A DNA stretch of 45,789 nucleotides, from positions 31,011-76,799 of the forward strand of contig PAJV01000025.1 in NCBI GenBank assembly GCA_002706765.1, written 5' to 3'. This DNA is from Gimesia sp. (GTDB lineage Bacteria; Planctomycetota; Planctomycetia; Planctomycetales; Planctomycetaceae). A program made the translations under genes and the position numbers. This document shows positions 7,249 through 41,371 of this stretch, piece after piece (the stretch's first letter is position 1; each line of letters opens with the position of its first letter). A model generated the notes under the pieces. It was not told where the DNA came from, ran no database searches, and worked only from the letters and a program-made list of their open reading frames with translations.

Positions 7249-7256
7249 GTGTCATT

Positions 7257-18239: not shown

Positions 18240-18334
18240 TGGATTCTTTTGTAAAAGCACATATAACAAATTCAACTTTTAGCATTTTTATTCTGCTGTC
18301 TAATTTCATCATCGAATGAAGAATATTTAACATC

Positions 18335-21455: not shown

Positions 21456-21511
21456 TAGACAAGTTTTTACTGCAATCGAAATATACGAGGTTGCTATTGA
21501 AGGAGCTTAAG

Positions 21512-22082: not shown

Positions 22083-22152
22083 CCCCCTTAACCGAGTCCA
22101 CCTGAAATGTGGTATTATTTCAATTTTGGACATAGTTTAGGGAGTATGAAAG

Positions 22153-22431
22153 ATGCCGAGAAAACGATTTACTGTTGAGCAGATTATTCAGAAGCTTCGT
22201 GAAGCGGAGGTCGAACTGGCTCGTGGCAAGACGATTGGCCTGGTCTGCAAACAACTTGGAATCACCGATCAGACTTATTACCGCTGGCGTAAGGAATACG
22301 GTGGAATCCGTACCGACCAGGCCAAACGACTCAAAGACCTGGAAAAGGAAAATGCACGCTTAAAGCGGCTACTGGCAGATGCGGAACTGGATAAGGCGAT
22401 CTTGAAGGAAGCCGCCTCGGGAAACTATTGA
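22153..22431 (+). CDS. IS3-family transposase OrfA (HTH protein)
   Basis: This 92-aa protein has a helix-turn-helix region (RFTVEQIIQKLREAEVELAR ... LVCKQLGITDQTYYRWRKEY). A leucine-zipper-like coiled coil (RLKDLEKENARLKRLLADAE) and the typical end ELDKAILKEAA follow. OrfA binds the IS ends. The frame ends at TGA 22429-22431, where OrfB continues in the -1 frame, so a fused OrfAB may be made by frameshifting. The intact frame here contrasts with the second copy, which has an in-frame stop. Confidence 0.92.
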   Translation: MPRKRFTVEQIIQKLREAEVELARGKTIGLVCKQLGITDQTYYRWRKEYGGIRTDQAKRLKDLEKENARLKRLLADAELDKAILKEAASGNY

Positions 22432-23333: not shown

Positions 23334-23363
23334 CAACTGGTACCGTTCGTGGGGGCAGGTCAG

Positions 23364-23801
23364 ATGCTGCTGACCCAGTCAGTTGCCTTCGGCCACTCTC
23401 ATGGAAGCAACCTGCCTGCAGGGCATGATTTACGCGCGCATATTCATCTGAATAAATCATCCATTGATGACTCTCACGGCCACGTTCATCACTATGAGGC
23501 TGATAAACACAGCCACCAGGATGACCACCATAAGAGCTCTGAAAATCAGGGCTTTCCACAGTTTACTAGTTCATCTGATCACGATTCCTCTGCGATCTAT
23601 CTTAATAGTATTGATGTGATCTCAGGTACGCGTTCAACTCTTAAGACGGAAATCAAAGTCCTGTTTCAATGGGACATCATCGGATGCAATTCATCTTTTG
23701 AATTTCCGCAACTCACAGAAACCGAACGATCGGTATTTGACTGCGCGCCCCCTGATTCTGGTTCCCCGCTCTTTGTCCGCCACCATGCTTATTTAATATA
23801 A
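23364..23801 (+). pseudogene. His-rich exported protein, N-terminus removed by IS insertion
   Basis: The frame begins 2 nt after the IS end and reads MLLTQSVAFGHSHGSNLPAG, the tail of a signal peptide plus a mature start. A His/Asp-rich segment follows (HDLRAHIHLNKSS, SHGHVHHYEADKHSHQDDHH), and the end is SPLFVRHHAYLI. The charged beginning of the signal peptide is missing, as expected if the IS cut it off. The histidines suggest metal (Zn/Ni/Co/Cu) binding. I do not know the family. ATG 23364 could still start translation, but export would probably fail. Confidence 0.5.
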
Positions 23802-24005
23802 GCATAGAACTCTTCGCAGACAGTATCACAAAATTAGGTTGGTACGTCCTGCTCTCTGCTTTTGGCGTTGACTAATTTCGCGATTCTTCTCAGGACAAAT
23901 CCTGAATGATTTGCGGAGAATTCTGTCGATTCGACCCTTTGTTTATGGTCGGACTATCTCTCTGTTCATTTTTTCAAATCTTCGCATGATGCGAAGGAGG
24001 TCTTT

Positions 24006-26890: not shown

Positions 26891-26899
26891 GAGAATACC

Positions 26900-29800: not shown

Positions 29801-30325
29801 TCAGTCGCCGGAATATTTATTGTTCTCATGATGCTTTATCCGTCAGCACGGATCACGTTTCAGATCCTGAATGCCATTCCGACTGCTTTTATTGGTGGTG
29901 TCTTCGCACTAGTATTAACCAACCAGACTCTTACCGTGGCTAGCATGGTAGGATTCGTATCTCTGGGGGGAATTTCTGTGCGAAACGGCATCCTGTTAGT
30001 GACACACTACTTTCATTTAATGGATGAAGAAGGGGAAGCGTTTAGTCAAAATATGGTGCTGCGGGGAAGTTTGGAAAGGCTTGCTCCGGTCCTGATGACC
30101 GCCTTGACCGCCGGTATTGCTTTGATTCCTCTTGTGGTAGGTGGTAATAAACCAGGGTTAGAAATTTTATACCCTGTCGCCACTGTGATTTTAGGAGGTT
30201 TGGTAACCTCAACGTTTTGCGAATTTTTTATTCACCCCGGCTTATTCTGGAAATTCTCGGGGAAAGATGCCGAACGACTGGTCCGTAGTAAAAGCTCTGA
30301 TGAAGAACTGCTGCGATCTGTATAA
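26900..30325 (+). CDS. Heavy-metal RND efflux pump, HME5-like
   Basis: This 1141-aa proton-driven pump starts at GTG, with TAGGAG upstream. The opening is LPIDVFPDLDRPRVV, and TM4 carries IAVAIGELVDDAIVDVENIF. The E-L-V-D-D...VDVEN pattern is what I recall for the HME5 class of heavy-metal RND pumps, different from the CusA-like pump at 14-17.6 kb. Within the first porter domain, about 85 residues (around 143-230, e.g. RRKGPQGGKLTAVGQT and VWNPVNRNDLSLWKKIEV) look like an insertion compared with CusA. The second half includes SMVGFVSLGGISVRNGILLV. The substrate is unknown; divalent cations are possible. Confidence 0.93.
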   Translation: MLNSIIRLSLTHRTLVLAACVVVLAYGGYLTTTLPIDVFPDLDRPRVVILTECPGMSSEEVETLVTYPIETAILGANGVEDVRSQSSQGMNVIYIEFSWKTEPRYARQIVSERLANVPMPPGIRPIMTPQASIMGQILHVGIHRRKGPQGGKLTAVGQTGLLAERTGNEASPELTVWNPVNRNDLSLWKKIEVENPKWDETNPGRDVAFVWNKRSYDVIFPTPLEERMDLRTTADWLIRPRLLKLTGIAEVIVMGGDEKQYQVLVDPIKLQEYNVSLQDVEAAVQSNNLNASGGFIIGGQTERSVRVIGRLGALTSDVLDELRKAPVKMNGDRAVLLYQVAQIVEGPAPKRGDASIDGHAGVVITIVKQPHADTRKLTDDVMAALSDAESTLPADIVINTSLFQLKSFIDRGIYYVEEALVIGAILVVIVLFLFLLNFRTTFITLTAIPLSLVITTLVFRIVGVMSGTELSINVMTLGGIAVAIGELVDDAIVDVENIFRRLGENNLNPHPKPAIVVVYEASREIRSAIVFGTAVVVLAFMPLFALSGVEGRLFIPLGIAYIVSILASLLVSLTVTPVLSYYLLPQAKATHAHQDGRLLRVLKWGASFLIRFSMRRAGILLVLTWALVGYSVWELSKLGADFLPKFDEGSVQINVSLPGGSSLKASNEASSLIDSQLVKLQKSAENPNGPVLHFFRRTGRAELDEHAQPVNVGEYILTMNPDSDHGRDEFLDTLLSDLRSNVPGVGIEAEQPLSHLISHMLSGVKAQVGIKLYGDDLDKLRELAGEVRDAITDIPGVTPPIIDPQERVDELHVVLKPDELAFFGLSREYIADFVQTALKGEAVSQVLDGQRRFDLVIKLNEEHRSDPYNLGELRIDLPDGRGQIRLREVANFPGSASGPNLINRENVRRRQTIRCNVSGRDLASAVSEIEERVRAQVALPTGYFVEFGGQFEAQRSATFLITILAAVSVAGIFIVLMMLYPSARITFQILNAIPTAFIGGVFALVLTNQTLTVASMVGFVSLGGISVRNGILLVTHYFHLMDEEGEAFSQNMVLRGSLERLAPVLMTALTAGIALIPLVVGGNKPGLEILYPVATVILGGLVTSTFCEFFIHPGLFWKFSGKDAERLVRSKSSDEELLRSV

Positions 30326-30371
30326 GAATGTAATACACGTAAACTAATTCTATCATGTAAAGGAAAACGAA

Positions 30372-30869
30372 ATGATGTACACAAAATCGCTGGGCTTATT
30401 CTTGGCAGCTTTACTCGTCACAGGTTGCTCGGACAAAGGCACTACCGACACTCCGAAAACTGAAACTGTGCAGCCCGAAAAACAGAATGAAGCTACCAGC
30501 ACCGAAGAACATGCACCACACGGTTCAGGCCCCAATGGTGGGGTGGTGTTTGATCTGGGAAAATATCACGCCGAATTCACAGTGGATCACCCCAAGCATG
30601 AATGCATGATTCTTTTCATAAGTAACGACGAGAAAACGCCGGTAGCGGTTACAGCAACAGATCTGACGTTAACCACAAAAGAGACAAAGACAGAAGAGGG
30701 AAAAGTAGTTCCCCCTATGACAGTGAAACTAGTTCCCCAGGATGAAACCGACGGGAAGGCAACGAAATTCGTCGGCACAGATCCTGGCATCGGTAATGTT
30801 GCCGATTTTGAAGGCACGGTTCTTGGTGAGGTTGATGGCAAGCCCTCTCAAGGTGAATTTAAAGAATAA
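30372..30869 (+). CDS. Lipoprotein of the third efflux operon, unknown function
   Basis: This 165-aa lipoprotein has lipobox LVTGC after a short signal (LGLFLAALLVTG), a Lys/Glu/Thr linker and a His-containing start of the folded part (HAPHGSGPNGGVVFDLGKYH). Beta-strand-rich sequence follows (CMILFISNDEKTPVAVTATD). The HG-x-x-GG...YHAE pattern resembles a short domain found in front of some planctomycete efflux adaptors. AAGGAAAA precedes the start. The gene follows the pump by 46 nt and is followed by a terminator-like hairpin, so it is probably the last gene of the operon. It may bind metal ions for the pump; this is an inference. Confidence 0.75.
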   Translation: MMYTKSLGLFLAALLVTGCSDKGTTDTPKTETVQPEKQNEATSTEEHAPHGSGPNGGVVFDLGKYHAEFTVDHPKHECMILFISNDEKTPVAVTATDLTLTTKETKTEEGKVVPPMTVKLVPQDETDGKATKFVGTDPGIGNVADFEGTVLGEVDGKPSQGEFKE

Positions 30870-30900
30870 ACTGTCCGGTGATAATGATGGTTTCCATTGA

Positions 30901-30934
30901 GGTCGCCGCCTCCGGTAAAACGGCAGCGGTGGCC
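30901..30934 (+). terminator. Likely rho-independent terminator of the third efflux operon
   Basis: GGTCGCCGC (30901-30909) pairs along its whole length with GCGGTGGCC (30926-30934) using two G-T pairs, and an inner CCG/CGG pair extends the stem. It is followed by TTT, a short T-run. It lies 32 nt after the lipoprotein stop. Confidence 0.5.
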
Positions 30935-30991
30935 TTTGGATGCAGTCGAGTGCTCAAATACATAAATACCCTAATTTGATGAAAGTAGATA

Positions 30992-31339
30992 ATGTACTAT
31001 CTTCTCAAAGTTCTGCTCACTGCTGGGTTGGTAGTTGCTGTATCGGAAATATCCAAGCGTAGCTCGCTTTGGGGGGGAATTCTCGCTTCGTTGCCACTGG
31101 TCTCTTTTCTTGGAATAATATGGTTATATATCGACACAGGGAGTACTGAGAAGGTTTCGGAACTTTCAAAAAGTGTATTCTGGCTAGTCCTACCGTCATT
31201 ATCTTTTTTCCTCATGCTGCCTTTTTTGCTTAAGAAAGGAATGGGCTTCGGTGCCAGTTTCGCATTTTCAACCATGGTTATGATTGGTTTCTATCTGGTC
31301 ATGATTATCTGTTTAAAGAAACTGGGAATTCATACTTAG
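30992..31339 (+). CDS. DUF3147 family membrane protein
   Basis: This 115-aa integral membrane protein has about four helices: LLKVLLTAGLVVAVSEISK, WGGILASLPLVSFLGIIWLY, SVFWLVLPSLSFFLMLPFLL and ASFAFSTMVMIGFYLVMIIC. The pattern E-I-S-K-R-x-S-x-W-G-G-x-x-A-S-L-P matches DUF3147 as I know it. It is probably a separate transcription unit because a terminator-like hairpin lies between it and the efflux operon. Its role is unknown. Confidence 0.8.
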   Translation: MYYLLKVLLTAGLVVAVSEISKRSSLWGGILASLPLVSFLGIIWLYIDTGSTEKVSELSKSVFWLVLPSLSFFLMLPFLLKKGMGFGASFAFSTMVMIGFYLVMIICLKKLGIHT

Positions 31340-31611
31340 TGCGATCCGAGCAGCAATTGATTTCTAGGGGTTGAATTTCAAAAGCTGTTAAGTTTAAGAA
31401 AAACTCATTTGCCCAAAATTTGCTTACGAATCTTGTTTAACTCCAATTAACCATGAATCTCATCAGGATTGGCATCAACAGAGAATTTGATGAATCCATT
31501 AAAAGTTGTAAATGCTTAAATATAAATACGTTGCGTATTTTATAATAAGAATTGAATCAAACATGGTTGTGTCTTCCAGCACGTTTGATTCAATCTAATA
31601 TGGGAGATTCA
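31340..31611. other. AT-rich non-coding stretch ahead of the island junction
   Basis: About 270 bases carry no gene. A short inverted repeat (TGATTCAA...TTGAATCA type) lies in the second half, with ATTGAATCAAACATG near 31550 and CGTTTGATTCAATC near 31583. It lies just ahead of the tRNA-like fragment. Confidence 0.35.
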
Positions 31612-31664
31612 AAACCCTCGGTTTACGAAAGCGAAGGTTGCAGGTTCGAACCCTGCGGGGTGTA
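31612..31664 (+). tRNA. tRNA 3'-part (partial; possible Arg-ACG), probable attachment-site remnant
   Basis: The sequence contains a perfect T-arm, GCAGG-TTCGAAC-CCTGC (31639-31655), followed by GGGGTGT and A as an acceptor 3' strand. Before it lies a stretch that can be read as an anticodon arm with loop TTACGAA (anticodon ACG, Arg), though the stem would contain one mismatch. No complementary ACACCCC 5' acceptor strand or D-arm is present upstream, so the 5' half is missing. This is what integration into a tRNA 3' end leaves behind. Confidence 0.55.
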
Positions 31665-31835
31665 ATGATTAATGATTTAAGTCAAAACGGCTCCGCCACA
31701 TGTCCAAGGACATGTCCAGCGGAGCCGTTTTGCGTTCCCGAACTGGCCGAACTCGTGGCTGCTTGGCCCGAGCTTCCCGAAGCGATACGAAAATCCATTC
31801 TTGCCGTGTTCGAGGCATCTCGCTCAATTCAATGA
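31638..31835 (+). pseudogene. Short ORF with integrase-tail-like ending, overlapping tRNA remnant and palindrome
   Basis: The downstream half of this 65-codon frame (ELAELVAAWPELPEAIRKSI then LAVFEAS) resembles the short helical tail I associate with the C-termini of planctomycete phage-type integrases. The first half is simply the tRNA remnant and the palindrome read in frame. I therefore see this as the remaining end of a lost recombinase gene rather than a real small protein. The integrase link is from pattern memory only. Confidence 0.3.
31683..31732. repeat. Large nested palindrome (14-bp and 8-bp perfect stems)
   Basis: CAAAACGGCTCCGC (31683-31696) is exactly complementary to GCGGAGCCGTTTTG (31719-31732). 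Inside it ACATGTCC (31698-31705) is exactly complementary to GGACATGT (31708-31715), leaving only AA between. It lies about 20 bases after the tRNA remnant. It could form a cruciform or be a recombinase or regulator site; the tiny inner loop does not favour a normal terminator. Confidence 0.8.
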
Positions 31836-31920
31836 TATTTGACGAACTAATGTTGGCCACCATGTGTCACTCTACCTAGATTCTGTTTTGAAGTATCTGA
31901 CCACTAATACGAAATAAAAC

Positions 31921-31986
31921 ATGAATATCAGTGATTTAGCTCCGGCCAACGAATCTACTCGCGTTCAAGCACTGTTGATCAACTGA
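31921..31986 (+). pseudogene. First 21 codons of an unknown gene, cut by IS copy 2
   Basis: A frame starting at ATG 31921 reads MNISDLAPANESTRVQALLI and N, then stops at TGA, which is the first three bases of the IS end at 31984. The sequence looks like an ordinary protein start, but the gene cannot be followed on the other side of the IS and I do not recognise it. Confidence 0.3.
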
Positions 31987-32012
31987 CAGGCCCCCCATTT
32001 CCGTACCAGTTG

Positions 32013-32906
32013 TTATGAGATCTTTAGGGTATCAGCAGTGTTTCTCTGGAAGGCGGACGGAGTCCGACTGGAAGAGATACACTGCTGCGAAAATTGTCTG
32101 GGGGTGAGGTAGCCCAGCGAACTGTGCGGACGAACCTCGTTGTAATGTTGCTTCCAGGCCTCTGTCTGCCGGCGGGCGGCTCTCAGGTTTTCAAACACCT
32201 CACAGTTCATGAACTCGTCCCGGACATGGCTGTGGAAACTCTCGGCGTATCCATTCTCCCAGGGACTGCCCGGTTCGACATACAGCGTTCCTACGCCGAT
32301 CTGTTTCAGCCAACTGCGAATTGCCTTGGACAGGAACTCACTGCCGTTGTCGCTGCGAAAGTGCTCCGGCACGCCGTGAGTTGGGAACAGCTCCGCCAGT
32401 TGGTTGATCACATCCTCGCTGGTGATGTGTCGGTCCACCTTCAAGGCCAGGCACTCCCTGGTATACTCGTCTATAATCGAGAGCCACTTGAGCGTGGTCC
32501 CAGTTTCTGTCCGATCAAAAATAAAATCGCAGCACCACACGTGGTTTTTCCTTTCTGCTCGATGGCGATGGCAGGCATTCGCCCCCGTACCCAGCGCACG
32601 TTTTTTCCTCTGTTTCCTGGGGACTTTGAGCCCTTCTCGACGCCACAAACGATAAATGCGTTTGGGATTCACCTTCCAGCCGGCCGCCTGCAGCATCCTG
32701 CCGATACGTCGATACCCGAAACGGGGATGCTGGCGCACCAGTTTCAGAATCTGCTTCAGCAGAGCGGCTTCATCGTCAGCAGGAACCGCCTGGTAGCGTT
32801 GGCTGGAACGAGGCTGACCCAGAACCCGGCAGGCTTTGCGTTCGGAAACGTCGAACGTCTGCTGCAGATGCTGGACGGCCTGGCGTTTGCGAGAAGGGCT
32901 TACCAG
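32013..32906 (-). CDS. IS3-family transposase OrfB (DDE), copy 2
   Basis: This integrase-type transposase of about 297 aa reads from CTG 32906 in the -1 frame relative to OrfA (SPSRKRQAVQHLQQ, KACRVLGQPRSSQRY, then HPRFGYRRIGRMLQAAGWKV). A GTG at 32738 is internal. The catalytic residues lie in CDFIFD, RSDNGSEF and NGYAESFH, followed by VRPHSSLGYLTP. The core looks intact, but the OrfA part needed for a fused OrfAB has a stop codon. The final ~25 codons coincide with an inverted repeat. Confidence 0.85.
   Translation of the reverse strand: MVSPSRKRQAVQHLQQTFDVSERKACRVLGQPRSSQRYQAVPADDEAALLKQILKLVRQHPRFGYRRIGRMLQAAGWKVNPKRIYRLWRREGLKVPRKQRKKRALGTGANACHRHRAERKNHVWCCDFIFDRTETGTTLKWLSIIDEYTRECLALKVDRHITSEDVINQLAELFPTHGVPEHFRSDNGSEFLSKAIRSWLKQIGVGTLYVEPGSPWENGYAESFHSHVRDEFMNCEVFENLRAARRQTEAWKQHYNEVRPHSSLGYLTPRQFSQQCISSSRTPSAFQRNTADTLKIS
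32033..32087. repeat. Imperfect inverted repeat in the transposase tail of IS copy 2
   Basis: CAGCAGTGT (32033-32041) is complementary to ACACTGCTG (32079-32087). The pairing continues after a mismatch with TCTCT/AGAGA and an inner CGGAC/GTCCG. It is placed like the 15-bp hairpin of IS copy 1, about 50 bases from the IS end. Confidence 0.6.
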
Positions 32907-33178
32907 TTTCCCTCCGCGATTTCCTTGAGCATCGCTTTGTCCAGCTCCGCCTCGGCGAGCAGCTTCTTGAGCCGGGTGTTTTCCTGTTCCAGTTCTCTCA
33001 GGCGTTTGGCCTGGTCCATCCGTAGACCACCGTATTCACGACGCCACTTGTAGTACGTCTACTGGTGGATCCTCAGTTTTTTGCACATCAGGGGAATCGT
33101 CATCCCCTGGGCGAGATGGACTTCAGCTTCCCGGAGTTTCGAAATGATCTGTTCGGATGAATGATGCTTGGTTGGCAT
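32900..33178 (-). pseudogene. IS3-family OrfA with in-frame TAG, copy 2
   Basis: Starting from ATG 33178 the frame gives a typical OrfA (SEQIISKLREAEVHLAQGMT, YYKWRREYGGLRMDQAKRLR, ELDKAMLKEIAEGNW) of 92 codons, the same length as in copy 1. Codon 40 is TAG (33059-33061), placed within HQ-stop-TYYKWR where copy 1 has DQTYYRW. Only the first 39 residues would be made, enough for part of the HTH, so the element is probably inactive unless complemented by copy 1. Confidence 0.8.
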
Positions 33179-33284
33179 GTTCGCCTCCTCCTCAATTGGT
33201 CCAGAATCCTGAATAGTATATCAAGTTCTGGATGCGGTTAAGGGGGGCACGTCATACTGGCTGTCAATTCATTGGAATCAGACA

Positions 33285-34805
33285 TCACTCAGTGTCCTCC
33301 TGCGAACTGCCCATCTTCGAGTCGTCCTTGGGAAAAAGCAGCTTCTCCACTTCGTCACTTCTTACTGCCTGTTTGATCTCGGCCATCTTTCGTTGGAGTC
33401 TTTCGATGATTAGTGTGTCCGATTCGTCAGTGAAAGCGAACACGCGGACCGGACCGGTTCGTCCGACTCTGTTGAACTGCCCAATGCGCGCGTCCAGTGT
33501 TGCTGGATTCATCGGGAGATCGTAGAAGATGACGGCAGAGACTTCTGGAATCGGCAACGACATGGCGGACGTAGTTATCAGGATACCGCCTTTGTGGCTG
33601 AAATCGCTGACGGATTGCTCCTGCTCCGCGTACGACATACTCCCAGTGACTACGACTACGTGGGGATGATGCTCGCTTAACGCGCTCTCCAAATACGTTG
33701 CTGTATTGACGTAACTGGTAAAAATGCAGACCCTTCGATCTCTGCTGGCTAAGACTCCGAGTGTATTTAGTAGTGAAACCAAAGAATCATACTTGGAGTC
33801 CGTGCTGACATCTTCCAACGACTCCAGCAGAACCGTAATACGATCAGCGAACTCCATTAACGCCCGTTCATAAAAACCGGGTTCTGGGTCACATACTTCG
33901 TCATCAGACCATAGGTTGGTGTCGTCGTTGTGAAGAAATTCATCCAGCCCATGAGCAATCTGATTCCTCCGATGTCGCATTCGGTTGAGAAGTTGCTCTA
34001 GAGCGAACAAACTTGATGAAGCTGTTTTAACGAGTTGAGTCCCAATTAATCGGCCTTGCTGACCATAACCTGCGATTACTTGCAAGGAATCCTGTAACTG
34101 GGAAAGCAAAGCCGCCTCGTCAGGTTGCCGCTTGTGGCTGATCCATTCAATGTAAACTTCAGGAAGTATTGGATTGCCATCTTTGTCACGAACCGTATCC
34201 CGTGACCAAACCGTAGTTTCAACGTCGTTGAAGAGTGGATTCTCTGTCTCTTTAACCGTTAAGGTCTCGAGCAAGATCTGCATATAGAGCACACGCATCT
34301 GAGGACAGTGTTCAACCAGTGCAGTAACGACTTGTTGTCGTTGCGTTTGTGGCGCGAGTTGATGTGCCTCGTCTACAACCAAAAGGTCCCACTGAGTCTG
34401 CATTAGGAATTCCGCGATTTCCGGGCGTTTTGCAAAATCGATGGACATAACAACAACACCTATTTGACTCCAAAGTGAGTCCGTCCTGCTTTGAAGTGAC
34501 TCCAGCTCCCGCAGACGCCGTCGATCCACATATTCGCACGCAACATCCGTGTTAGAGCGGTGGATCATTTCAACCCATTGATGGGCCAAGGCTGTCGGTG
34601 CGAGGACAAGAACTCGTTTTGCTTGTTCATGTGCTGCTGTATAGCCGACGATTGAGCTGCCAACAAATCCCTTTCCAAGTCCGGGGAGACTCGTGAGTAA
34701 ATGCTTTCGTTCAGAGCCCGCTGCGAGAAACTTTGCTGCAAATTCCGATTGGTGCGGAAAATAGCCAAGATTGCCAATGAATGCGTCTAAGTTTTCTGTG
34801 CTCAT
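33285..34805 (-). CDS. SF2/SNF2-like helicase with degenerate motifs (candidate defence-operon component)
   Basis: This 506-aa protein has the layout of a DEAD/DEAH-type superfamily 2 ATPase. It has a Q-like entry (YFPHQSEFAAKFL), motif I (SLPGLGKGFVGSS, 39-51), motif Ia (RVLVLAPTALAHQW), motif II DEAH (VVDEAH, about 141-147), and in the C-terminal half VCIFTSYVNTATYLE, GGILITTSAMSLP and motif VI (QFNRVGRTG, near 441). Motif I has GKG where GKT/S is expected. The usual motif III SAT is replaced by MQILLETLT, so ATP hydrolysis may be altered. A strong AAAGGAGGTG precedes the start. It overlaps the CBS-HEPN gene stop by 4 nt, so the two are translationally coupled. Confidence 0.85.
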   Translation of the reverse strand: MSTENLDAFIGNLGYFPHQSEFAAKFLAAGSERKHLLTSLPGLGKGFVGSSIVGYTAAHEQAKRVLVLAPTALAHQWVEMIHRSNTDVACEYVDRRRLRELESLQSRTDSLWSQIGVVVMSIDFAKRPEIAEFLMQTQWDLLVVDEAHQLAPQTQRQQVVTALVEHCPQMRVLYMQILLETLTVKETENPLFNDVETTVWSRDTVRDKDGNPILPEVYIEWISHKRQPDEAALLSQLQDSLQVIAGYGQQGRLIGTQLVKTASSSLFALEQLLNRMRHRRNQIAHGLDEFLHNDDTNLWSDDEVCDPEPGFYERALMEFADRITVLLESLEDVSTDSKYDSLVSLLNTLGVLASRDRRVCIFTSYVNTATYLESALSEHHPHVVVVTGSMSYAEQEQSVSDFSHKGGILITTSAMSLPIPEVSAVIFYDLPMNPATLDARIGQFNRVGRTGPVRVFAFTDESDTLIIERLQRKMAEIKQAVRSDEVEKLLFPKDDSKMGSSQEDTE

Positions 34806-35662
34806 TGCTGCACCTCCTTTTGTCGGGCTTCAGCAGTGCGGGCTTTTCTTAGCATCCATTCACGATTGGCAGCAAGCGTTTCGTATTCCTCAACCGTGAT
34901 CTTTCGCCGGAAATGGAAAATGACGTTGCGAACGTCACGGAGTTGCTCCAATTTGGCTCGTGTTCGTACACGATTGCCTCCAAAAAACGGCTGGAAATGA
35001 TCCCATCGTCTTCCGTCTCCGACAATTTGGATGTAGTCGTTGAAAGTCATCGCATGAAGTTCAGTTGGCATTCGCTCTACATCGTATTTGTCTTTCAGGC
35101 ACTCGTGAGCACAGGCAGAGAGTGTGTCTCCGTCGACGGCCATTTGCATTAGTGCACGAAGTGCTAGTTCAACTTCGCCGATCAGGACAAAGGGGCTGGC
35201 CACACGGTAGAGATATCTCAGGATGTCCATTGCCGTGACTATCCCCTGCAATTGATCAGGAGCACCAACGAGAACAGAATCGCTGCGATCAATTACATCG
35301 AACCACTCCACAAATTCATCTGTAACATGTGCAAACTTTGGCTTTGAATCCATACACTCTTCGACCGTAAGCTCAAGTGGATCAAGCTTCCGATTCTTTG
35401 TAGCCACACGTCCGAGAGAAATAACGGAGCGTGTAAACGTCTGGTACGAAAACAGCCCCAGCACTTCCTGCCCAACGACGACCGGAACTTGCGAGTACCC
35501 ATGTTGTTCCAGCAAATCTAGTGCATCGGTGATAAGCATTTCAGGTTCAACCGTGACAAGCTTCTGCGAGTCCGGAATCACGCTATTGACGCGATGGAAT
35601 AGCTCCGTGACCGTTGTTGCCGAGTTCACAGACGTCGGGATTGGTTCTCTTGGATTTTCCAT
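34802..35662 (-). CDS. CBS-domain and HEPN (Swt1-like) fusion protein, putative nucleotide-gated RNase
   Basis: This protein of about 286 aa has two CBS repeats in its N-terminal half (QKLVTVEPEMLITDALDLL ... QVPVVVGQEVLGLFSYQTF, then VEECMDSKPKFAHVTDEFVE ... GIVTAMDILRYLYR). CBS pairs normally bind adenine nucleotides. The C-terminal half is helical (ELALRALMQMAV, MTFNDYIQIVGDGRRWDHF) and ends with RDVRNVIFHFRR near 241-252, an R-x4-H motif as in HEPN RNases. The order resembles the Swt1-type HEPN. ATG 35662 is preferred to 35689 because GAGGAA lies upstream. Coupled to the helicase gene and 94 nt from the ATPase gene, it is the likely effector of the operon. RNase activity is inferred. Confidence 0.8.
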   Translation of the reverse strand: MENPREPIPTSVNSATTVTELFHRVNSVIPDSQKLVTVEPEMLITDALDLLEQHGYSQVPVVVGQEVLGLFSYQTFTRSVISLGRVATKNRKLDPLELTVEECMDSKPKFAHVTDEFVEWFDVIDRSDSVLVGAPDQLQGIVTAMDILRYLYRVASPFVLIGEVELALRALMQMAVDGDTLSACAHECLKDKYDVERMPTELHAMTFNDYIQIVGDGRRWDHFQPFFGGNRVRTRAKLEQLRDVRNVIFHFRRKITVEEYETLAANREWMLRKARTAEARQKEVQQ

Positions 35663-35783
35663 TGGATGTGACTCATTCCTCAATTTCATTTGAGGAGCCT
35701 GAAAGGGTTCGGAAAACGATGTCGAGAAGATTACGATAGTAGTTCATGGGCAATACAGTTTTTCGGATCGATTTTTTTGTCCG

Positions 35784-37808
35784 CTAATCCTTGTCAAACA
35801 AATCTGGTTGGGCATCTGGGTTTGCAGCGTGGAGCTGTTTGCCAAATAGGGGACCAACGTCAACGCCGAGTCTTAGGCGTGTTGTACTCTTTTTCTCGAG
35901 TTTTTGCGGGGGTGGTGTGGTTGTTGTCACGATATATTGAAACGGGGCTGTTGAATTCTGTTTGCGTAGTTCGTCGGCTATGTCGGAAACGCAGATTAGG
36001 AAGCGGCGGTAGATTTGGCCGCCGAGGTCGGCTTCGCGGGGACTGTCGTGCATCAACAGGCCGGGATGTTGGGCCGCGCCAATAGCGCCCATGACCAACA
36101 CGGTGAGATCGGCGATCAGGATGGACAGTGTCTCAAATGCTTCACCTGAAAGATTCTCGCCTCGAAAAATGCGAAACTCGATGCCGTCTCTGGTGAGGCT
36201 GATACGTCCTCGAAATTCTTTGGACAGCGTTGTACGGATCAGAGACTCGAAGACTGCGCGAAGACCATCAGCAAGTTGGTCCTGCTCTTTGATCAAGTCG
36301 GTGAGCTTCTGTTTGGCAGCTTGCTCTTCTTTATCGATCTTGTTCTGGCGTTTCACCAGCTTAGCAAGTTCAGAATCGTCTGTGTTCCCGTCACGCAGAT
36401 TCTCCCACTCAACGATTCTGGCCAGTATTGATTCGAGATCGATTATTTGCCGATCCGTTGCCAGACGCTGGTCGTTCAGCTTTTGCTGTTGCTTCAATAG
36501 CTTGTCCAACGCGCCCTGCAGTTTCTCCAGCATCTTGGCCCGTCGTTCAATCTTTGATTTGATCGCGGCAGCAGCTTGCTCACGTCCTGCCGTTGTTGGC
36601 AGTGTTGATTTTTGGGTATCTCGTATTTGGTCGCCAAGCTTTGTCAGTTGTTGCAGCGCGTATGAGCAGTCGCCAATTGAAATTTGGCCGTAGCGGCAAA
36701 TCGACAACCCGGCTTCCTTGATTCCTATTTCGAGTTCCCGCAGTTCCTTGATCGATTCCAGAAGTACACAGGTGCCATCGTCAGAGTTGGCGACTGCAGC
36801 TTGTTCCTGTGCCTGTAGTTCGGCTGGCTCCTGTAGAGCGATGCTGGCAAGATTGATTTGTCGACCGAGCGAAATCAGTTCTATGTCTCGATCAGTTTGC
36901 TTTGTTTCGAGTCGGTTGATTTGCAACTCAATTAACCTTGGCAGACTAAACAGCTCACCTTCATTGAGCGACGCGGTCATGGCCTCAGAAATATCGAACT
37001 CATCTCTCAGTCTACGACGAAGGTTGCGAGCCCAATAATCTGGTTCCTTTTGTCGCTCAGCAATTTTTAATTTTAGGTCTGACTGTTCTGTAGTGATGTC
37101 CAGCAGCTTGTGCTGTAACTTGGATTCGGCATCGGGCAGTAATCCCAACACCGAACGCAGTGTCCTGTAAGCGTCGTCCTTCTGGATGTTCGGTGGGCCG
37201 GAATCACTGCGCGGCGAACGCCATTGCCAGAGACTTTGATAGCGGGCTTCCTGATCGCGTGTACACATTGCCAGCAGGTGACCCCATTGCAGCGAAGCAC
37301 CACCGGGCAGCACGGAATCACTACGGATGCCTTTAAGGCATGCAGCCTCCAGTATTTTGCAGTATGTATTGAAGGATGCCTTGGCCGGACGGTCTTGGAT
37401 TAGTTTCTCAATCGTGGCATTGGCTTGGGCACAGTCGGCGCGTTGTTTGGCAAAGGGACGAAGCACTGCCCATCGCTGACCGTTGATATGCACTTCTACT
37501 GCAACGAAGCCGTCGGGAAAGGTGTGGTGGATTTCTTTGACGGCGTGGTTTTGCCCGTAGCTGGATTCCCCGAGGCAATAGCGAATCAATCGGCAGAGTG
37601 TCGTTTTGCCAACGCCGTGCCCCGGTTCGAGGGTGTCGGTTTCAGTCTCGTCTTCAATTCCCCATACGATATTGATACCGGTGACGAGCTTGATCGACTC
37701 ACGAATAAGTGTTGGCGGATCGAGCGATTCGTACAGGTCGATGCGACTGACCCAAACCAAGGGCTCGGTTCGTATCGTTTTCTTGATGCCGTATCCCAGT
37801 ATTGCCAT
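35784..37808 (-). CDS. SMC/DUF2326-like ABC ATPase with long coiled coil
   Basis: This 674-aa protein has Walker A GHGVGKTT at 63-70 near the N-terminus and a long coiled coil through the middle (LDITTEQSDLKLKIAERQKE, IKSKIERRAKMLEKLQGALD). The C-terminal ABC half has a signature-like LSGEAFETLS near 551 and a Walker B-like PGLLMHDSPREA near 581. This N- and C-terminal split by coiled coil is the SMC/Rad50 layout; the start resembles DUF2326 ATPases of ABC three-component (ABC-3C) systems. It starts 6 nt after the small upstream protein, so they are coupled. I infer a DNA- or phage-sensing ATPase; the exact family needs a profile search. Confidence 0.85.
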   Translation of the reverse strand: MAILGYGIKKTIRTEPLVWVSRIDLYESLDPPTLIRESIKLVTGINIVWGIEDETETDTLEPGHGVGKTTLCRLIRYCLGESSYGQNHAVKEIHHTFPDGFVAVEVHINGQRWAVLRPFAKQRADCAQANATIEKLIQDRPAKASFNTYCKILEAACLKGIRSDSVLPGGASLQWGHLLAMCTRDQEARYQSLWQWRSPRSDSGPPNIQKDDAYRTLRSVLGLLPDAESKLQHKLLDITTEQSDLKLKIAERQKEPDYWARNLRRRLRDEFDISEAMTASLNEGELFSLPRLIELQINRLETKQTDRDIELISLGRQINLASIALQEPAELQAQEQAAVANSDDGTCVLLESIKELRELEIGIKEAGLSICRYGQISIGDCSYALQQLTKLGDQIRDTQKSTLPTTAGREQAAAAIKSKIERRAKMLEKLQGALDKLLKQQQKLNDQRLATDRQIIDLESILARIVEWENLRDGNTDDSELAKLVKRQNKIDKEEQAAKQKLTDLIKEQDQLADGLRAVFESLIRTTLSKEFRGRISLTRDGIEFRIFRGENLSGEAFETLSILIADLTVLVMGAIGAAQHPGLLMHDSPREADLGGQIYRRFLICVSDIADELRKQNSTAPFQYIVTTTTPPPQKLEKKSTTRLRLGVDVGPLFGKQLHAANPDAQPDLFDKD

Positions 37809-37814
37809 CGCCTA

Positions 37815-38396
37815 TTACCCCTGCTTTACAATCAGTTCCATTCGCTGTGTCTTGATATCGTTCGCCGCTTTCTGATCGCTTTCACTTGCGGAAGTGTCCG
37901 TCGCCAACAATTCGGCGGCTCGTTGCGTTGCCTTGACGACGAGCTTCCTCAACGACTTGGATGTCTTTGGTAGCGTCTTCCGCACTTCGTCAAAACCACC
38001 ACCAGTTGTAAGTCTGTTGTCGGACAGGTCGAGCGAACGGTTGGCGATCAAACAACTGACCATCAATCGCCATGGCGGTTTGCCGCCCGAGGACGAGGTG
38101 AGCTCGTCCGGCAGCGACTTGATGGCGCGAGTCAGCTTGCTGCGATCTTCACTCGGGAGCAGTGTTCGGCAACGCTCTGTTTGCATCACCAAAAGCAGGA
38201 AGTCCAGATAGAAGTGAAGCCTCAAGCTGGGTTGGAACGCAACCGCATCCATCAAGTAAGCACAGAGCGACTTATCCAGATCATTCGTTGGGAATGCGGG
38301 GTCGATTTCGTTGTACGTCGATTTCTGTTCTGCGACCAACACCGGCTGAGTATCCAGCAGTTCGTTCTCGAACAGTGAAGCTCCAGTTGGCTGCAC
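37815..38396 (-). CDS. Small helical protein upstream of SMC-like ATPase (ABC-3C middle-component-like), N-terminally truncated
   Basis: This protein of about 193 aa is mostly helical (DLDKSLCAYLMDAVAFQPSL, LHFYLDFLLLVMQTERCRTL, PPWRLMVSCLIANRSLDLSD). It lies 6 nt before the SMC-like ATPase gene on the same strand. Paired small proteins of this kind are the middle components of ABC three-component systems, so this is my tentative call. The reading frame stays open upstream of the GTG used here with a Lys-rich stretch (AEEVASGIHGKESTKKAKRK) and ends at a stop near 38503. The original start appears to have been lost at the junction with a UvrD fragment on the opposite strand. Confidence 0.6.
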   Translation of the reverse strand: MQPTGASLFENELLDTQPVLVAEQKSTYNEIDPAFPTNDLDKSLCAYLMDAVAFQPSLRLHFYLDFLLLVMQTERCRTLLPSEDRSKLTRAIKSLPDELTSSSGGKPPWRLMVSCLIANRSLDLSDNRLTTGGGFDEVRKTLPKTSKSLRKLVVKATQRAAELLATDTSASESDQKAANDIKTQRMELIVKQG

Positions 38397-38491
38397 CTTC
38401 GCATTCTTCTTGGGACCTTTCCGCTTCGCCTTCTTTGTTGACTCCTTACCGTGTATGCCAGATGCGACTTCTTCGGCGTGGCGTTTATGGT

Positions 38492-38797
38492 TACGAAGAT
38501 ATTATTCCAGCGATGACGGTTCATAAGAGTAAGGGGTTGGAATTTCACACAGTTGTCTTTCTTGGATTAGAAGATTCGCAACTTTGGAACTTTGCTAGAC
38601 AATCAGAGGAAGAGATACGCGGATTTTTTGTTGCGTTTTCACGCGCCATCCACCGTGTAATATTCACATTTTCTGATAAACGAGATGGGAAATACGGTCG
38701 ACCTGAGCGTCAGAGCCAAAGAAAAATTAAAGACCTTTATTCACTTCTGCAGAAAGCAGGAGTAAAGACGATTAATTGTCGAGACGATAGTGATTGA
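38492..38797 (+). pseudogene. UvrD/Rep-type helicase, C-terminal fragment
   Basis: The frame contains the SF1 helicase motifs MTVHKSKGLEF (motif V) and FFVAFSRAIHRVIFTF (motif VI), the usual C-terminal end of UvrD/Rep/PcrA-like helicases, followed by about 45 residues to the stop. Nothing like the Walker A part is present upstream: the sequence there is coding on the opposite strand for the small helical protein. A longer open frame from 38162 exists but is antisense to that gene. The fragment was therefore joined here by rearrangement. Confidence 0.75.
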
Positions 38798-38800
38798 CTT

Positions 38801-38923
38801 ATGATACCCGCCGGAGAACAGAGAATCCTGCGTACCCTGGGTGTGATCGAGTATGTCCAGGAGATTCAGTCTGAACGACGGAGACCTCGTACCAGAAGAT
38901 CAAAGAAGAAAACACCTCAATGA
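38801..38923 (+). CDS. 40-residue basic peptide, unknown (probable remnant)
   Basis: A short frame starts 3 nt after the UvrD fragment ends and reads MIPAGEQRILRTLGVIEYVQ, then ends in a highly basic tail (RRRPRTRRSKKKTPQ). It resembles a gene end rather than a start, and I recognise no family. The protein-like first half and DNA-binding-like tail are the only reasons to list it. Confidence 0.25.
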   Translation: MIPAGEQRILRTLGVIEYVQEIQSERRRPRTRRSKKKTPQ

Positions 38924-39001
38924 TTAACTTCTGATAGTTCTCTGGCATCCAGAGAGAGCAACCTGGGTGAGGTTCCAACATCTGCCGCGGATAACCTGGA
39001 T

Positions 39002-39178
39002 TTAAAAGCAGAGAGGATGAAGAAAATGCGAATTCGGAATTGACATTTCCTGAGGTGATATATCTCGTTCCAGTCGCAGACGCTTGACTTCTTCACGCAG
39101 CTGTTTGAGTTCTTCGTTCTCGGTATCACTTTCCGGCTGGGAAAACTTTGCCTTCCAGCGATGAATTAACTTCTCAAA
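39002..39178 (-). pseudogene. IS3-family OrfA remnant
   Basis: On the minus strand, directly after the recombinase stop, a frame reads FEKLIHRWKAKFSQPESD, then EELKQLREEVKRLRLERDI, the helix and zipper part of a different IS3-family OrfA. It then loses similarity (expected LKKA) and ends at a TAA near 39002. No OrfB follows. It is a third, unrelated IS trace in the island. Confidence 0.55.
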
Positions 39179-39830
39179 TCGACTTGAGAATGACTTTTAA
39201 CTTCTGTATCTCTTCAGCAGATAACAGAGGCATCATATCGACCATTTCGTTTCTTACATCTTTAACCTTGAGCTTTTCTGAAACCTCCGACGCAGCAGCC
39301 TGGGCAGCCTTAGTCGCACCATAGAACTTTTCAGTCGTCGAAAAATCTCGGTGTCGTAAAATGACTTTGAGCGTTTCTGCTGAGATCCCTGCGTTGATCA
39401 GACGGTGAGCACAACCCCGTCTCAGATCGTGGGCAGTGGCATATTTTAGACGGCGTCCTGTTTCTTCATCTGGCTGCTGAACGATGATCCGGGCCTGCTC
39501 ATCAATCTGAGCAATGATTCGGCTGACTCGGTCCGTTGACAGCCGTTTCTCCGTTCTCTGAGCTTGTCTGCTGGACTGCTTCTCAGCCCGTTTTCTGAGT
39601 TTCGTAATGGCGTCGGAAGCAATCTCCCCCTGATGCTGATTGAATTCGATTTTGCGTTTGATTTTCGCTTTGCTGAGCCAGTTTCGGATGGTGGTATCAG
39701 AAACCCCGCAGGCTCGGCCGATGGCAGTATTGCTGTACTGTTCTGCCAGCCTGGTGAGATCCCGGTTAGTTGGTCTGAACCATTGGCTGTCTGTTTCGAT
39801 TTGATATTCCATCGGCTGTGGGTTAACCAC
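39174..39830 (-). CDS. Tyrosine recombinase, C-terminal catalytic part with internal HTH
   Basis: This 218-aa frame carries the second half of a tyrosine recombinase: HDLRRGCAHRL (the HxxR motif) and ILRHRDFSTTEKFYG (second His and the nucleophile Tyr). Before these catalytic motifs lies a helix-turn-helix-like segment (NRDLTRLAEQYSNTAIGRAC, VSDTTIRNWLSKAKIKRKI). The first half with the first catalytic Arg is in the adjoining frame at 39837-40505, in the same reading frame, separated only by TGA and two codons. It starts at a GTG that is probably just internal to the original gene. Without suppression of the stop this protein lacks the first Arg and would be inactive. Confidence 0.75.
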   Translation of the reverse strand: MVNPQPMEYQIETDSQWFRPTNRDLTRLAEQYSNTAIGRACGVSDTTIRNWLSKAKIKRKIEFNQHQGEIASDAITKLRKRAEKQSSRQAQRTEKRLSTDRVSRIIAQIDEQARIIVQQPDEETGRRLKYATAHDLRRGCAHRLINAGISAETLKVILRHRDFSTTEKFYGATKAAQAAASEVSEKLKVKDVRNEMVDMMPLLSAEEIQKLKVILKSI

Positions 39831-39836
39831 CCAGCC

Positions 39837-40505
39837 TCACCGGTCTTTTTCAGGAACCTGGTCAAGCAGTTCTTGTAAACCAGGCAACATCGGGATTTCC
39901 TGGTTTTTGCGGTTCTTTTGTGTTGAGGGGATCACGATTGTGGGATGCAAATCCTGACGGTCCGGCCAGACGGGATGTATCTTCCGCACATCATCCCAGG
40001 AAAAGTTCATCAGATCACTGATGCGAAAGGCACTCTCCCAGAGTATCTGTAAAACGAATTTCCAGGAATCTGCCGGTTGCTTACCTACGACTTCAGGAGT
40101 GGCCTCGAGCGTTTTTTCAAATTCTTCATCGGTCACCGGCCGCCCTTTCATCACATCGTCCACACTCAGTTTAGTGAGAGGAAGGACCTTCCGGATCCAG
40201 TCATGACGATAGCAGTACCGCACGAATGCCATGATCGCTTCCATCGTCGAGTTGACTGTCGTCGGAGCCCGATAATCCTGCCGGCTTTCTTCGCCTGCGA
40301 GCAGCTGGTCCTGTAAATACTCCAACGCCGTCAGGGTTGTGTATTCTTCGATGTTTCCATTCTCCGGAAGTTCCTGTTCCTTCCGCTGATTTTCCAGGAT
40401 CCGGCCAGCTATCCCAATCCGAGACATAGAATTATCTAATGATTTATTCCGGAAACGTTTTTTGCAGTGTTCATAATAATGTTCCACACAATCCTGCCAG
40501 TTCAT
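39837..40505 (-). CDS. Tyrosine recombinase, N-terminal part (gene interrupted by in-frame TGA)
   Basis: This 222-aa frame has a core-binding domain (DCVEHYYEHCKKRFRNKSLD, TTVNSTMEAIMAFVRYCYRH) and the start of the catalytic domain with the first Arg (ILWESAFRISDLMNFSWDDV), then IPMLPGLQELLDQVPEKDR and a TGA. Continuing in the same frame past the stop (GWVVNPQPMEYQI) gives the rest of the recombinase. The protein-like frame also continues upstream of ATG 40505 (VARSTPAPEPQEETEYLSD) to a TGA, so the original start may also be damaged. It is probably the integrase of the element whose end lies near 40.8 kb. Confidence 0.75.
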   Translation of the reverse strand: MNWQDCVEHYYEHCKKRFRNKSLDNSMSRIGIAGRILENQRKEQELPENGNIEEYTTLTALEYLQDQLLAGEESRQDYRAPTTVNSTMEAIMAFVRYCYRHDWIRKVLPLTKLSVDDVMKGRPVTDEEFEKTLEATPEVVGKQPADSWKFVLQILWESAFRISDLMNFSWDDVRKIHPVWPDRQDLHPTIVIPSTQKNRKNQEIPMLPGLQELLDQVPEKDR

Positions 40506-40880
40506 ATCACTCAGGTATTCAGTCTCTTCCTGAGGCTCCGGGGCAGGGGTGGAACGTGCGACTGGATTTCCAGGGCTTGCGTGATTACACCTTCAGACTC
40601 AATGTGGCGACCATTCAATAATCGCTCACGACACTCGCGCAACTGGAATTGGAGTCACGTTTCACGACACTTCCTGTGCCGGTCGATGTGGAAACGTGAT
40701 AAATATTCTGCATCTTCTTTGTTACTACTAATTTTAGTAAGGTCTATCTAAGATGTAGCAAAATGTAGTTAATTCCACGGGATTTGCCTGAATCGACCCA
40801 AATTGCGCTGAATTGTGAAATGCCGTGTTTCATGATAAATACTCTGAATTAGGGGGTGAAAAGCTATTGTCAGCAAAATC
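40506..40880. other. Island end: non-coding stretch between recombinase and truncated sulfatase
   Basis: About 375 bases follow the recombinase start. They contain an AT-rich part with a short direct repeat (ATGTAG...ATGTAG near 40750) and then meet the broken sulfatase frame. An attachment site is expected here but cannot be identified without the matching copy. The first ~90 bases contain open-frame sequence that may be a lost recombinase N-terminus. Confidence 0.4.
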
Positions 40881-41072
40881 TTAATTCTTATCGTCCGCAA
40901 GGATATAGATAATATTGGGATCACTGTTTTTTTCCGCGGCTTGAGCTGTATTGGAGAAGCCTGCCGCGACACAGACGGTTACCAGCATCAGGCAGAAGAT
41001 CGCGCATCGGTAAAATCGGTCTGCAGTCCCTGTGTTGAACTGGCGCTGGGAAAAATAAGTAACAGTCTGCAT
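40881..41072 (-). pseudogene. Sulfatase, N-terminal fragment with signal peptide
   Basis: From ATG 41072 (AGAGGAG upstream) the frame gives a signal peptide (CAIFCLMLVTVCVAAGFS ... AQAA), then EKNSDPNIIYILADD, the conserved start of arylsulfatases (normally followed by LG and the metal-binding Asp motif). It diverges after ADD and stops at once. Only ~63 residues of a ~450-600 aa enzyme remain, so it is a remnant, most likely broken by integration of the neighbouring element. Its site of breakage marks a probable island boundary. Confidence 0.72.
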
Positions 41073-41344
41073 GGCGGCTCCTCTAAAGGAATGATCCGGG
41101 TATTCGGAATGGTTCCTTTCAGTATCAGCTGCGCGAACCACCGGGTCAAGTCAGAGCCCCCCGCCGGAACCGCTGTCTGACTCCAAACTCCAGGTCAAAC
41201 ACATCGGCTTCGTTGCCGATTTGAGCACACTGGTTCATCATGACGATAGCCATACAAGCAGTAAGAGGGGACATGGCAAGACTCTCCGAAGTGAAAACCG
41301 CGATAGTCGTTGGACACGTGGAGTGCCATCAGAGGGGAGCTCTT

Positions 41345-41371
41345 CAGTTATAGGTACCCGACCCCTTTATT
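41345..41371. repeat. Short dispersed intergenic repeat, copy 1
   Basis: CAGTTATAGGTACCCGACCC followed by CTTTATT resembles the sequence at 44763-44790 (CAGTTATAAGAACCCGATCC then CTTATTC). It overlaps the last codons and stop of the SulP gene on the minus strand. Two copies within 3.5 kb suggest a genome-wide repeat. Confidence 0.4.

Follow-up and report, generated by a model that had tools for sequence, protein, structure and literature searches.

ARMADA type I consists of YprA, a BrxHII-like SNF2 protein, and a PglX-like methyltransferase, and a four-gene ARMADA type II protects Escherichia coli with no cell death (Bell et al. 2025, PMC12458937). DISARM class 1 is made up of DrmD, DrmMI, DrmA, and DrmB. 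DS-11 consists of a single CBS-HEPN protein whose defense is abolished by Y157A and by HEPN mutations, and an unknown adenine derivative has been proposed as its regulator, according to the DefensePredictor paper (PMC13092281). Passages of two further papers put CBS-HEPN fusions on record since 2013 (PMC3710099) and describe HEPN fusions and backup HEPN effectors in Hma/DUF499 BREX-related systems (PMC12839542). Here, we compare these systems with a locus in a 45,789-nucleotide stretch of a Gimesia sp. genome (GCA_002706765.1, contig PAJV01000025.1, positions 31,011 to 76,799), hereafter called the window, where four minus-strand open reading frames (ORFs) at positions 33285 to 38396 had been taken for a candidate defense operon in an initial annotation made from the sequence alone. 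The best overall explanation, and a probable one, is that the four ORFs represent what is left, at the 3' end, of an ARMADA/DISARM-class immune locus based on a methyltransferase.

The recomputed ORFs agreed with the initial annotation on the four genes and their spacing. Read along the minus strand, they are ORF 1, the methyltransferase tail (P0004; 37815 to 38396, GTG start, 193 amino acids as called), an SMC-like ATPase gene (P0003; 35784 to 37808, 674 amino acids), a CBS-HEPN gene (P0002; 34802 to 35689, 295 amino acids), and a gene for a degenerate helicase, here called the pseudo-helicase (P0001; 33285 to 34805, 506 amino acids). ORF 1 and the SMC gene are separated by a gap of 6 nucleotides (nt), the SMC and CBS-HEPN genes by a gap of 94 nt, and the CBS-HEPN and pseudo-helicase genes overlap by 4 nt. 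The SMC, CBS-HEPN, and pseudo-helicase genes have no frameshift and are full length compared with their relatives.

ORF 1 had been read as a small helical protein with a gene of its own. However, its frame is open upstream of the GTG until a stop near position 38501, giving a remnant that spans 37815 to 38501 on the minus strand, and its product matches methyltransferase C termini. It is 42% identical to a 1,555-residue methyltransferase from a planctomycete contig (L033), the match lying within the C terminus at residues 1393 to 1545, and the SMC protein of that contig is 52% identical to that of the window. Over residues 1 to 1387, the L033 methyltransferase is 74% identical to an ARMADA-type methyltransferase of 1,377 amino acids (L022), which stops where the tail would start and has no SMC gene behind it. 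A 259-residue remnant similar to that of the window (L034) shows 35% identity, linker included, and is followed by an SMC gene, DrmA in two ORFs, and DrmB. The tail is also 38% identical to the C terminus of an HsdS protein from Planctomycetes bacterium Pan216 (L032, positions 3132 to 12031), where HsdR, HsdM, and the HsdS with the tail domain are followed by an SMC gene. The extension upstream of the GTG resembles the linker near the C terminus of the DrmMI protein in L026, a locus with matches to DrmD (1068 bits), DrmMI (1294 bits), and DrmA (1017 bits). On these comparisons, ORF 1 is the C-terminal remnant of a PglX/DrmMI-like DNA methyltransferase of the DISARM/ARMADA type, and we regard its identity as a remnant as highly probable.

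The folded part of the tail, approximately residues 36 to 192 of the called ORF, recurs beside other SMC genes. An iterated hidden Markov model (HMM) seeded with the window, L032, L033, and L034 detected it in 26 of 80 SMC loci, at the ends of 23 methyltransferase ORFs, at the end of one HsdS (L032), as a separate 123-residue ORF (L053), and as the 259-residue remnant of L034. Because the HMM was seeded with those sequences, non-detection elsewhere may be missed detection. With ORF 1 as the lone query, a phylum-wide search recovered the window alone (1 of 392), so single-sequence searches miss the tail-domain family. AlphaFold2 models the domain as helices plus a wing-like hairpin, with a predicted local distance difference test (pLDDT) score of 87.5 and a predicted template modeling (pTM) score of 0.80. 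Foldseek returned nothing at an E value of ≤0.001. Winged-helix regulators such as MarR proteins were frequent among its nonsignificant top matches, and rank 4 was 9uxh_D, a 170-residue chain of a Lamassu complex, whose E value of 0.62 is not significant and makes it a lead only. In the profile searches and structure prediction proposed in the initial annotation, profiles assigned P0001 to P0003 (SNF2-like, DS-11-like, and LmuB-like, respectively), but P0004 matched nothing in Pfam, NCBIfam, or PADLOC scans (PADLOC at E values of ≤1), and the SMC fold was placed near YydD, LmuB, and Rad50, while that of ORF 1 had no significant match.

The remnant ends against a second broken defense gene. A 3' fragment of a GajB-like UvrD helicase gene, its last approximately 94 codons (38495 to 38797, plus strand), matches the PADLOC GajB model PDLC00103 with an E value of 1.3e-32, covers model positions 518 to 610 of 612, and abuts ORF 1 on the opposite strand. 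Since the GajB homology starts at about 38495, a few bases from the end of the methyltransferase frame, we infer a deletion or recombination junction at this point, and the two abutting fragments suggest that the GajB fragment marks the point at which the methyltransferase locus lost its upstream part. Elsewhere in the genome of the window (G000), the DrmMI model gave matches of 51 and 21 bits only, and no intact parent of the window locus was found. L029 and L030 were considered as possible carriers, on other contigs, of the missing methyltransferase part and were rejected, their matches being weak and partial.

The SMC-like protein behind the tail appears to be intact, with an ABC head, a coiled coil, and apex cysteines C371 and C381 (C-x9-C). 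Its AlphaFold2 model (pLDDT of 88.8) shows, besides the ABC head, a long coiled coil that has both cysteines at its turn, and the nearest solved folds in Foldseek are YydD (1.1e-17), LmuB (3.1e-14 for 9uxh_F and 1.6e-12), and Rad50 (2.2e-11). In PADLOC, the protein matches LmuB (E value of 4.5e-16, 57 bits), PDC-M68B (9.7e-13), and, at an E value of only 0.009, PbeC. There was no convincing Pfam family (best E value of 0.028), and the name PDC-M68 was absent from a literature text search. The SMC-type ABC ATPase of the initial annotation is upheld by the model, the fold matches, and the LmuB profile. The LmuB model matches 39 of the 40 SMC family members scanned, that of the window included, at E values of ≤1e-5. 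Counts for the SMC family come from the best 80 (L032 to L111) of 102 relatives confirmed in a scan with a five-sequence alignment, to which L026 and L027 (DrmB, 264 bits) had contributed. By record title, the relatives belong to several bacterial phyla, with one archaeal metagenome-assembled genome. All of 81 SMC sequences have the H-x-x-G-K-T motif, and 80 have the Walker B aspartate; the apex cysteines occur in 75 and 80, respectively.

A place behind a methyltransferase is the usual one for an SMC gene of this family. A DrmMI/PglX-like methyltransferase lies directly upstream in 65 of the 80 loci (60 by script plus L064, L067, L089, L095, and L103, where the SMC start was called too far upstream) and within about 1 kb in 68, the additions being L044, L053, and L057 with gaps of 1013, 486, and 909 bp, respectively. 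By called starts, the commonest distances in the script's adjacent set are -17 nt (22 of 60) and 12 nt (8 of 60). Among the other 12 loci, 3 SMC genes stand behind a Methylase_S protein, a type I HsdS (L032, L079, and L093), and one follows the remnant of L034; L073, L076, L078, and L106 have 0 to 958 bp upstream, with an ORF that has no Pfam match in L078 and L106, and L075, L091, L094, and L102 have no reference methyltransferase. DUF1998/YprA, SNF2, and methyltransferase genes without DrmA, that is, the ARMADA type I set, were found in 46 of the 80 loci (40 by strict script plus L044, L053, L067, L089, L095, and L103), and DrmA and DrmB matches, indicating DISARM class 1, were found in 6. 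By contrast, in three LmuB-family loci from the same phylum the small neighbor matches the ABC-3C component MC3 in two and has no match in the third (L141), and the sole larger LmuB neighbor scanned matches CTD7.

The SMC gene is an optional, not a constant, part of ARMADA-type loci. Selection by the SNF2 model PDLC02853 (E values of ≤1e-100; 13 of 392 phylum genomes), with L022 added, gave 14 loci, 5 of which (L147 and L152 to L155) could not be judged, the contig ending in, just after, or before the methyltransferase. Neither tail nor SMC gene was present in seven of the nine evaluable loci (L022, L028, L146, and L148 to L151), and L024 carries both; in this set, which was not chosen by the SMC gene, tail domain and SMC gene are found together, L025 being the exception. 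In a tree of the SMC proteins (FastTree, 79 tips, midpoint-rooted, with L109 and L073 left out), all 26 tips with a tail domain group in a single clade with a support of 1.0. The window is sister to the pair of L033, the relative with an ARMADA-like methyltransferase, and L032 (type I), and then comes L034 (DISARM), so that ARMADA-like, type I, and DISARM contexts are neighbors in the tree. L079 and L093, in which the SMC gene likewise follows HsdS, fall in another SMC clade. We read the tree as suggesting that a module of SMC and tail has passed between host systems.

The next gene encodes a CBS-HEPN protein, as the initial annotation had proposed. Pfam found CBS alone in P0002 at E values of ≤1, and NF053863 (DS11_antiphage) matched over most of its length with an E value of 6.7e-32 and 110.8 bits. 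The protein keeps the R-N-x3-H motif of HEPN domains (R254-N255-VIF-H259) and an aromatic residue, Y65. A relative from E. coli (L123) passes the DS-11 cutoff with 351.7 bits and is approximately 26% identical to the window protein. Y65 aligns with Y157 of this E. coli DS-11-like protein, and the position is Y or F in all six aligned sequences. We assume that the E. coli record, in a region where annotation is absent, is the tested DS-11 protein, an assumption supported by the matching residue number when the longest start is used. The window protein is a divergent relative of DS-11.

Orthologs of the CBS-HEPN protein were found in 2 of 169 other genomes of the family (78% and 71% identity, in L022 and L023, respectively), and weaker matches were found in six further family genomes at E values of 5e-12 to 5e-4, including G003, whose gene lies in L028. 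Together with the pseudo-helicase gene, the CBS-HEPN gene forms a two-gene cassette that also stands behind the ARMADA-type methyltransferase of L022 and between HmaB and HmaC in the Hma locus L023 (HmaA, 1779 bits; HmaB, 1560 bits; HmaC, 1448 bits). CBS-HEPN genes are likewise present in the ARMADA-type loci L028 and L024. The L024/L042 locus, from one genome, has a methyltransferase with the same tail, an SMC gene, a gene for 317 amino acids, and a CBS-HEPN gene, a distant second co-occurrence of SMC and CBS-HEPN. The L022 locus with the cassette (positions 2781 to 7827) also holds a ZacB match (2e-176), FRG-domain and DUF6361 genes, and a 320-residue gene with no Pfam match. In L126 (positions 44 to 4690, genome G359), a CBS-HEPN gene at 1889 to 2827 is flanked by a gene for 568 amino acids that matches AAA_16 weakly and, on the other side, by one with AAA_15 and OLD-like TOPRIM domains, possibly another platform for the protein. 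Relatives were found by tblastn on 11 plasmid records, and on a Haloferax larsenii plasmid (L133, positions 8891 to 12870) one lies 221 bp downstream of the gene for a full-size, 998-residue SNF2-type helicase, with a cytosine methyltransferase gene downstream of it. A contig scan with P0002 as the lone query gave 26 pattern matches, none of which was confirmed. Viral contigs gave no matches to query A2 and four distant SNF2 matches to query A3.

The helicase-like SF2 protein of the initial annotation is indeed SF2/SNF2-like, and more precisely BrxH-like, but it has lost motifs that an active enzyme should have. Walker A reads GKG for GKT, motif III (TATP) is missing, and motifs V and VI are altered; DEAH is kept. 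These changes are common to the relatives in L022 (54% identity) and L023 (41% identity), and the SNF2 proteins of L022, L024, L028, and L026 do not have these losses. In L023, the contig ends at motif I of HmaA, which is truncated there. The pseudo-helicase gene overlaps the CBS-HEPN gene by ATGA in all three loci, that is, in the window, the ARMADA-type L022, and the Hma locus L023. A plasmid search for the pseudo-helicase returned general SNF2 proteins (227 records). The protein would be an adaptor devoid of ATPase function.

One alternative, in line with the initial annotation, is a new autonomous four-gene defense operon, with a small helical protein as regulator, the SMC protein as sensor, the CBS-HEPN protein as effector, and the helicase. 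The tight same-strand spacing fits such an operon, as does the full length, relative to homologs, of three of the four ORFs. It is rejected because ORF 1 is the last part of a methyltransferase, and the survey of co-occurrence that the initial annotation had recommended turned up the complete set nowhere else among the loci searched, the nearest being L024/L042 with methyltransferase, SMC, 317-residue, and CBS-HEPN genes. Just one of the 80 SMC loci contains CBS-HEPN, and what lies upstream of SMC in those loci is a methyltransferase in 68, HsdS in 3, the remnant in 1, too short a sequence in 4, and no reference family in 4. We therefore consider a self-contained operon to be extremely improbable. 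Nearly as improbable is an ABC-3C or Lamassu system with an ABC ATPase, a middle component, and an effector, an idea that goes back to the view that the first pair of genes resembles ABC-3C components. The fold of the SMC protein is nearest to YydD and LmuB, the LmuB profile matches nearly the whole of the scanned family, and 9uxh_D ranks fourth for ORF 1, all of which would suit a Lamassu-like assignment. However, the 9uxh_D match is not significant, ORF 1 and its 25 aligned relatives have no Pfam middle-component match at E values of ≤0.1 (0 of 26 tail-domain sequences), and comparison of the tail domain with MC3 (hhalign, two-sequence alignment) gave 0.4% versus 0.2% for an unrelated control. 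Nor does P0002 have an ABC-3C effector C-terminal domain in Pfam at E values of ≤1.

The four ORFs could also be dead debris, in which nothing is expressed or useful and the open frames merely reflect recent truncation. The 5' end was lost at a junction with a second broken defense gene, an insertion element sits at the 3' end, the nearby recombinase is split, and none of the other loci searched has all four genes, all as expected of debris. Against this, three ORFs are free of frameshift, and a lone CBS-HEPN protein can protect, as shown for DS-11 (PMC13092281). Debris is a more substantial alternative than the other two, although an unlikely one.

The reading that we prefer, a 3' remnant of a methyltransferase-based immune locus, has several observations against it as well. 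G000 is a draft of 78 contigs, so the missing genes may be unassembled, and the absence of the host system is limited in scope, as DrmA, DrmB, and YprA were not searched in G000. Only 26 of the 80 SMC loci yielded the tail domain, which may be undetectable or absent in the others, the ARMADA-type locus L025 has a diverged SMC gene without a detected tail domain, and the case for SMC docking consists of gene order and co-occurrence. The CBS-HEPN protein falls below the NF053863 cutoff (110.8 versus 260 bits) and lacks the N-terminal approximately 100 amino acids. Its gene accompanies SMC in just one of the 80 loci (L042), so the partnership of the two is not obligate, and in the 7 of 11 plasmid neighborhoods that were viewed, including one without annotation (H6), no annotated SMC gene or SNF2-methyltransferase set lies beside it. 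For the CBS-HEPN/pseudo-helicase pair, nonsynonymous differences per site (pN) of 0.13 to 0.38 lie far below the synonymous differences per site (pS) of 0.79 to 0.84, a point in favor of our reading as a sign of coding constraint, but synonymous divergence (dS) is saturated, so that selection after truncation cannot be judged.

If the four ORFs are indeed such a remnant, the function of the intact locus may be sketched. Its helicases and methyltransferase would perform modification-based restriction as in ARMADA. The tail domain would dock the SMC ATPase onto the methyltransferase, or onto HsdS in relatives, a proposal that we consider about evenly balanced. By analogy with Lamassu, a DNA-clamping SMC ATPase could then work alongside the modification enzyme and the helicases to scan, inspect, or mark DNA. 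An adenine nucleotide would gate the CBS-HEPN protein, in the way suggested for DS-11, and this protein would cut RNA when the main system fails; a nucleotide-gated backup effector of this kind has, in our judgment, roughly an even chance of being correct. The pseudo-helicase would serve as the adaptor of CBS-HEPN and would take the docking place of an active SNF2 helicase. Neither the SNF2 helicase nor the greater part of the methyltransferase was found in G000, so modification-dependent restriction should be lost here. The CBS-HEPN/pseudo-helicase pair is complete and, like DS-11, may work by itself, although that it is still active in this organism seems somewhat doubtful.

A broader proposal, which we put forward tentatively and consider less likely than not, is that a Lamassu/Rad50-like SMC ATPase plus a dedicated docking domain, fused to the end of the modification subunit, is a portable module carried by ARMADA type I, DISARM class 1, and type I HsdS, that a DS-11-like CBS-HEPN cassette with a conserved inactive SNF2 adaptor is carried by ARMADA and Hma, and that the window holds both after loss of the host system. 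If this is true, the SMC and docking domain would give methylation-based systems a sensor of DNA structure or DNA ends, and the CBS-HEPN/SNF2 adaptor cassette would equip ARMADA and Hma with a fallback that cuts RNA under nucleotide control. An SMC ATPase wired to the methyltransferase in many of the loci, and to HsdS in a few type I systems, would be a direct candidate for a second check, beyond methylation, by which ARMADA and DISARM distinguish invading DNA from self. The inactive SNF2 partner suggests a route by which a nucleotide-gated RNase may be attached to different DNA-based systems. The locus is also a caution that tightly packed genes of unusual make-up, taken for an "operon," can be what truncation has left of a larger system: ordinary as an operon, it is informative as a fossil.

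The initial annotation had placed the set in a defense setting between insertion sequence copies and recombinase genes. The defense setting is upheld, and the components come from known defense loci (ARMADA, DISARM class 1, Hma, and DS-11). As for the mobile genes, there is one rve-type element on one side and a split recombinase on the other, but the element is a single adjacent one, with a related stretch 10 kb away at 22180 to 22435. By eye, it is IS3-like and lies at approximately 31990 to 33250 on the minus strand, with rve and HTH_21 in an ORF at 32013 to 32738; it ends about 40 bp beyond the stop of the pseudo-helicase gene and may have cut off further genes downstream. Beyond the GajB fragment, a tyrosine recombinase gene (39174 to 40505, minus strand) is split into two ORFs, and the Phage_integrase match (PF00589) is restricted to the C-terminal half, at 39174 to 39830. 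Two close relatives, G028 and G030, align with the left flank until a breakpoint at 31576 to 31645 and then diverge, which marks the segment as a variable region holding at least two broken genes. The breakpoint stretch resembles a tRNA 3' end by eye, and a tRNA-borne island was considered and rejected, as ARAGORN found no tRNA in the window, L137, or L138. The sole direct repeat reported in 31300 to 41400 is one 18-nt pair, at 40201 and 41238. Farther out, two heavy-metal-type RND efflux clusters with HlyD_D23, ACR_tran, and OEP domains occupy 12138 to 30325, and a sulfate permease family protein fused to a carbonic anhydrase domain is encoded at 41367 to 43613 (minus strand). The stretch at 26900 to 31339 is 98% identical in G030 and G028 versus 73 to 81% in other long-matching members of the genus, which suggests a recent transfer.

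When the locus is set against the known systems, the SMC protein, tail domain, and pseudo-helicase are not named as parts of ARMADA, DISARM class 1, Hma, or DS-11 in the literature passages searched. In word searches of main texts, "SMC," "ABC ATPase," "CBS," and "HEPN" have 0 occurrences in the ARMADA paper (PMC12458937), and "SMC" has 0 occurrences in the DISARM structure paper (PMC9142583). The CxC-type ABC ATPases (PbeC, Dnd-linked), as described in passages of PMC10853773, resemble the window SMC protein in size, apex cysteines, and links to DNA modification, but the window protein has C-x9-C and not CxC, and PbeC matches at an E value of only 0.009. Lamassu is similar in that the window SMC protein is nearest to LmuB/YydD folds and the LmuB PADLOC model; it differs in that the SMC neighbors are methyltransferases or HsdS and not LmuA or LmuC, P0004 and P0002 matching no PADLOC model at E values of ≤1, and sequence similarity is weak (57 bits). 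The Hma/DUF499 BREX-related systems share the CBS-HEPN/pseudo-helicase cassette, which lies inside the Hma locus L023, whereas the window set has no Hma core gene. The DS-11 protein shares with the window protein the CBS pair, the HEPN domain with its R-N-x3-H motif, and an aromatic residue at the reported ATP-contact position; the window protein differs in its identity of only about 26% to the E. coli one, its shorter N terminus, by approximately 100 amino acids, and its pairing with the pseudo-helicase. With DISARM class 1, DrmD, DrmA, and DrmB were not seen beside the window set among the ORFs scanned (DrmA and DrmB were not searched genome-wide), but 6 of the 80 SMC relatives lie in loci with DrmA and DrmB matches, behind DrmMI or, in L034, a remnant similar to that of the window. 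ARMADA type I differs in that the ORFs scanned around the window set include no YprA/DUF1998, which was not searched genome-wide, the PDLC02853 SNF2 model has no match at E values of ≤1e-100 in G000, P0001 being a degenerate SNF2 of another family, and the PglX-like methyltransferase is reduced to its C-terminal tail. The window shares with ARMADA-type loci the methyltransferase tail and the position of the SMC gene, 46 of the 80 SMC relatives lying in loci with the ARMADA type I set.

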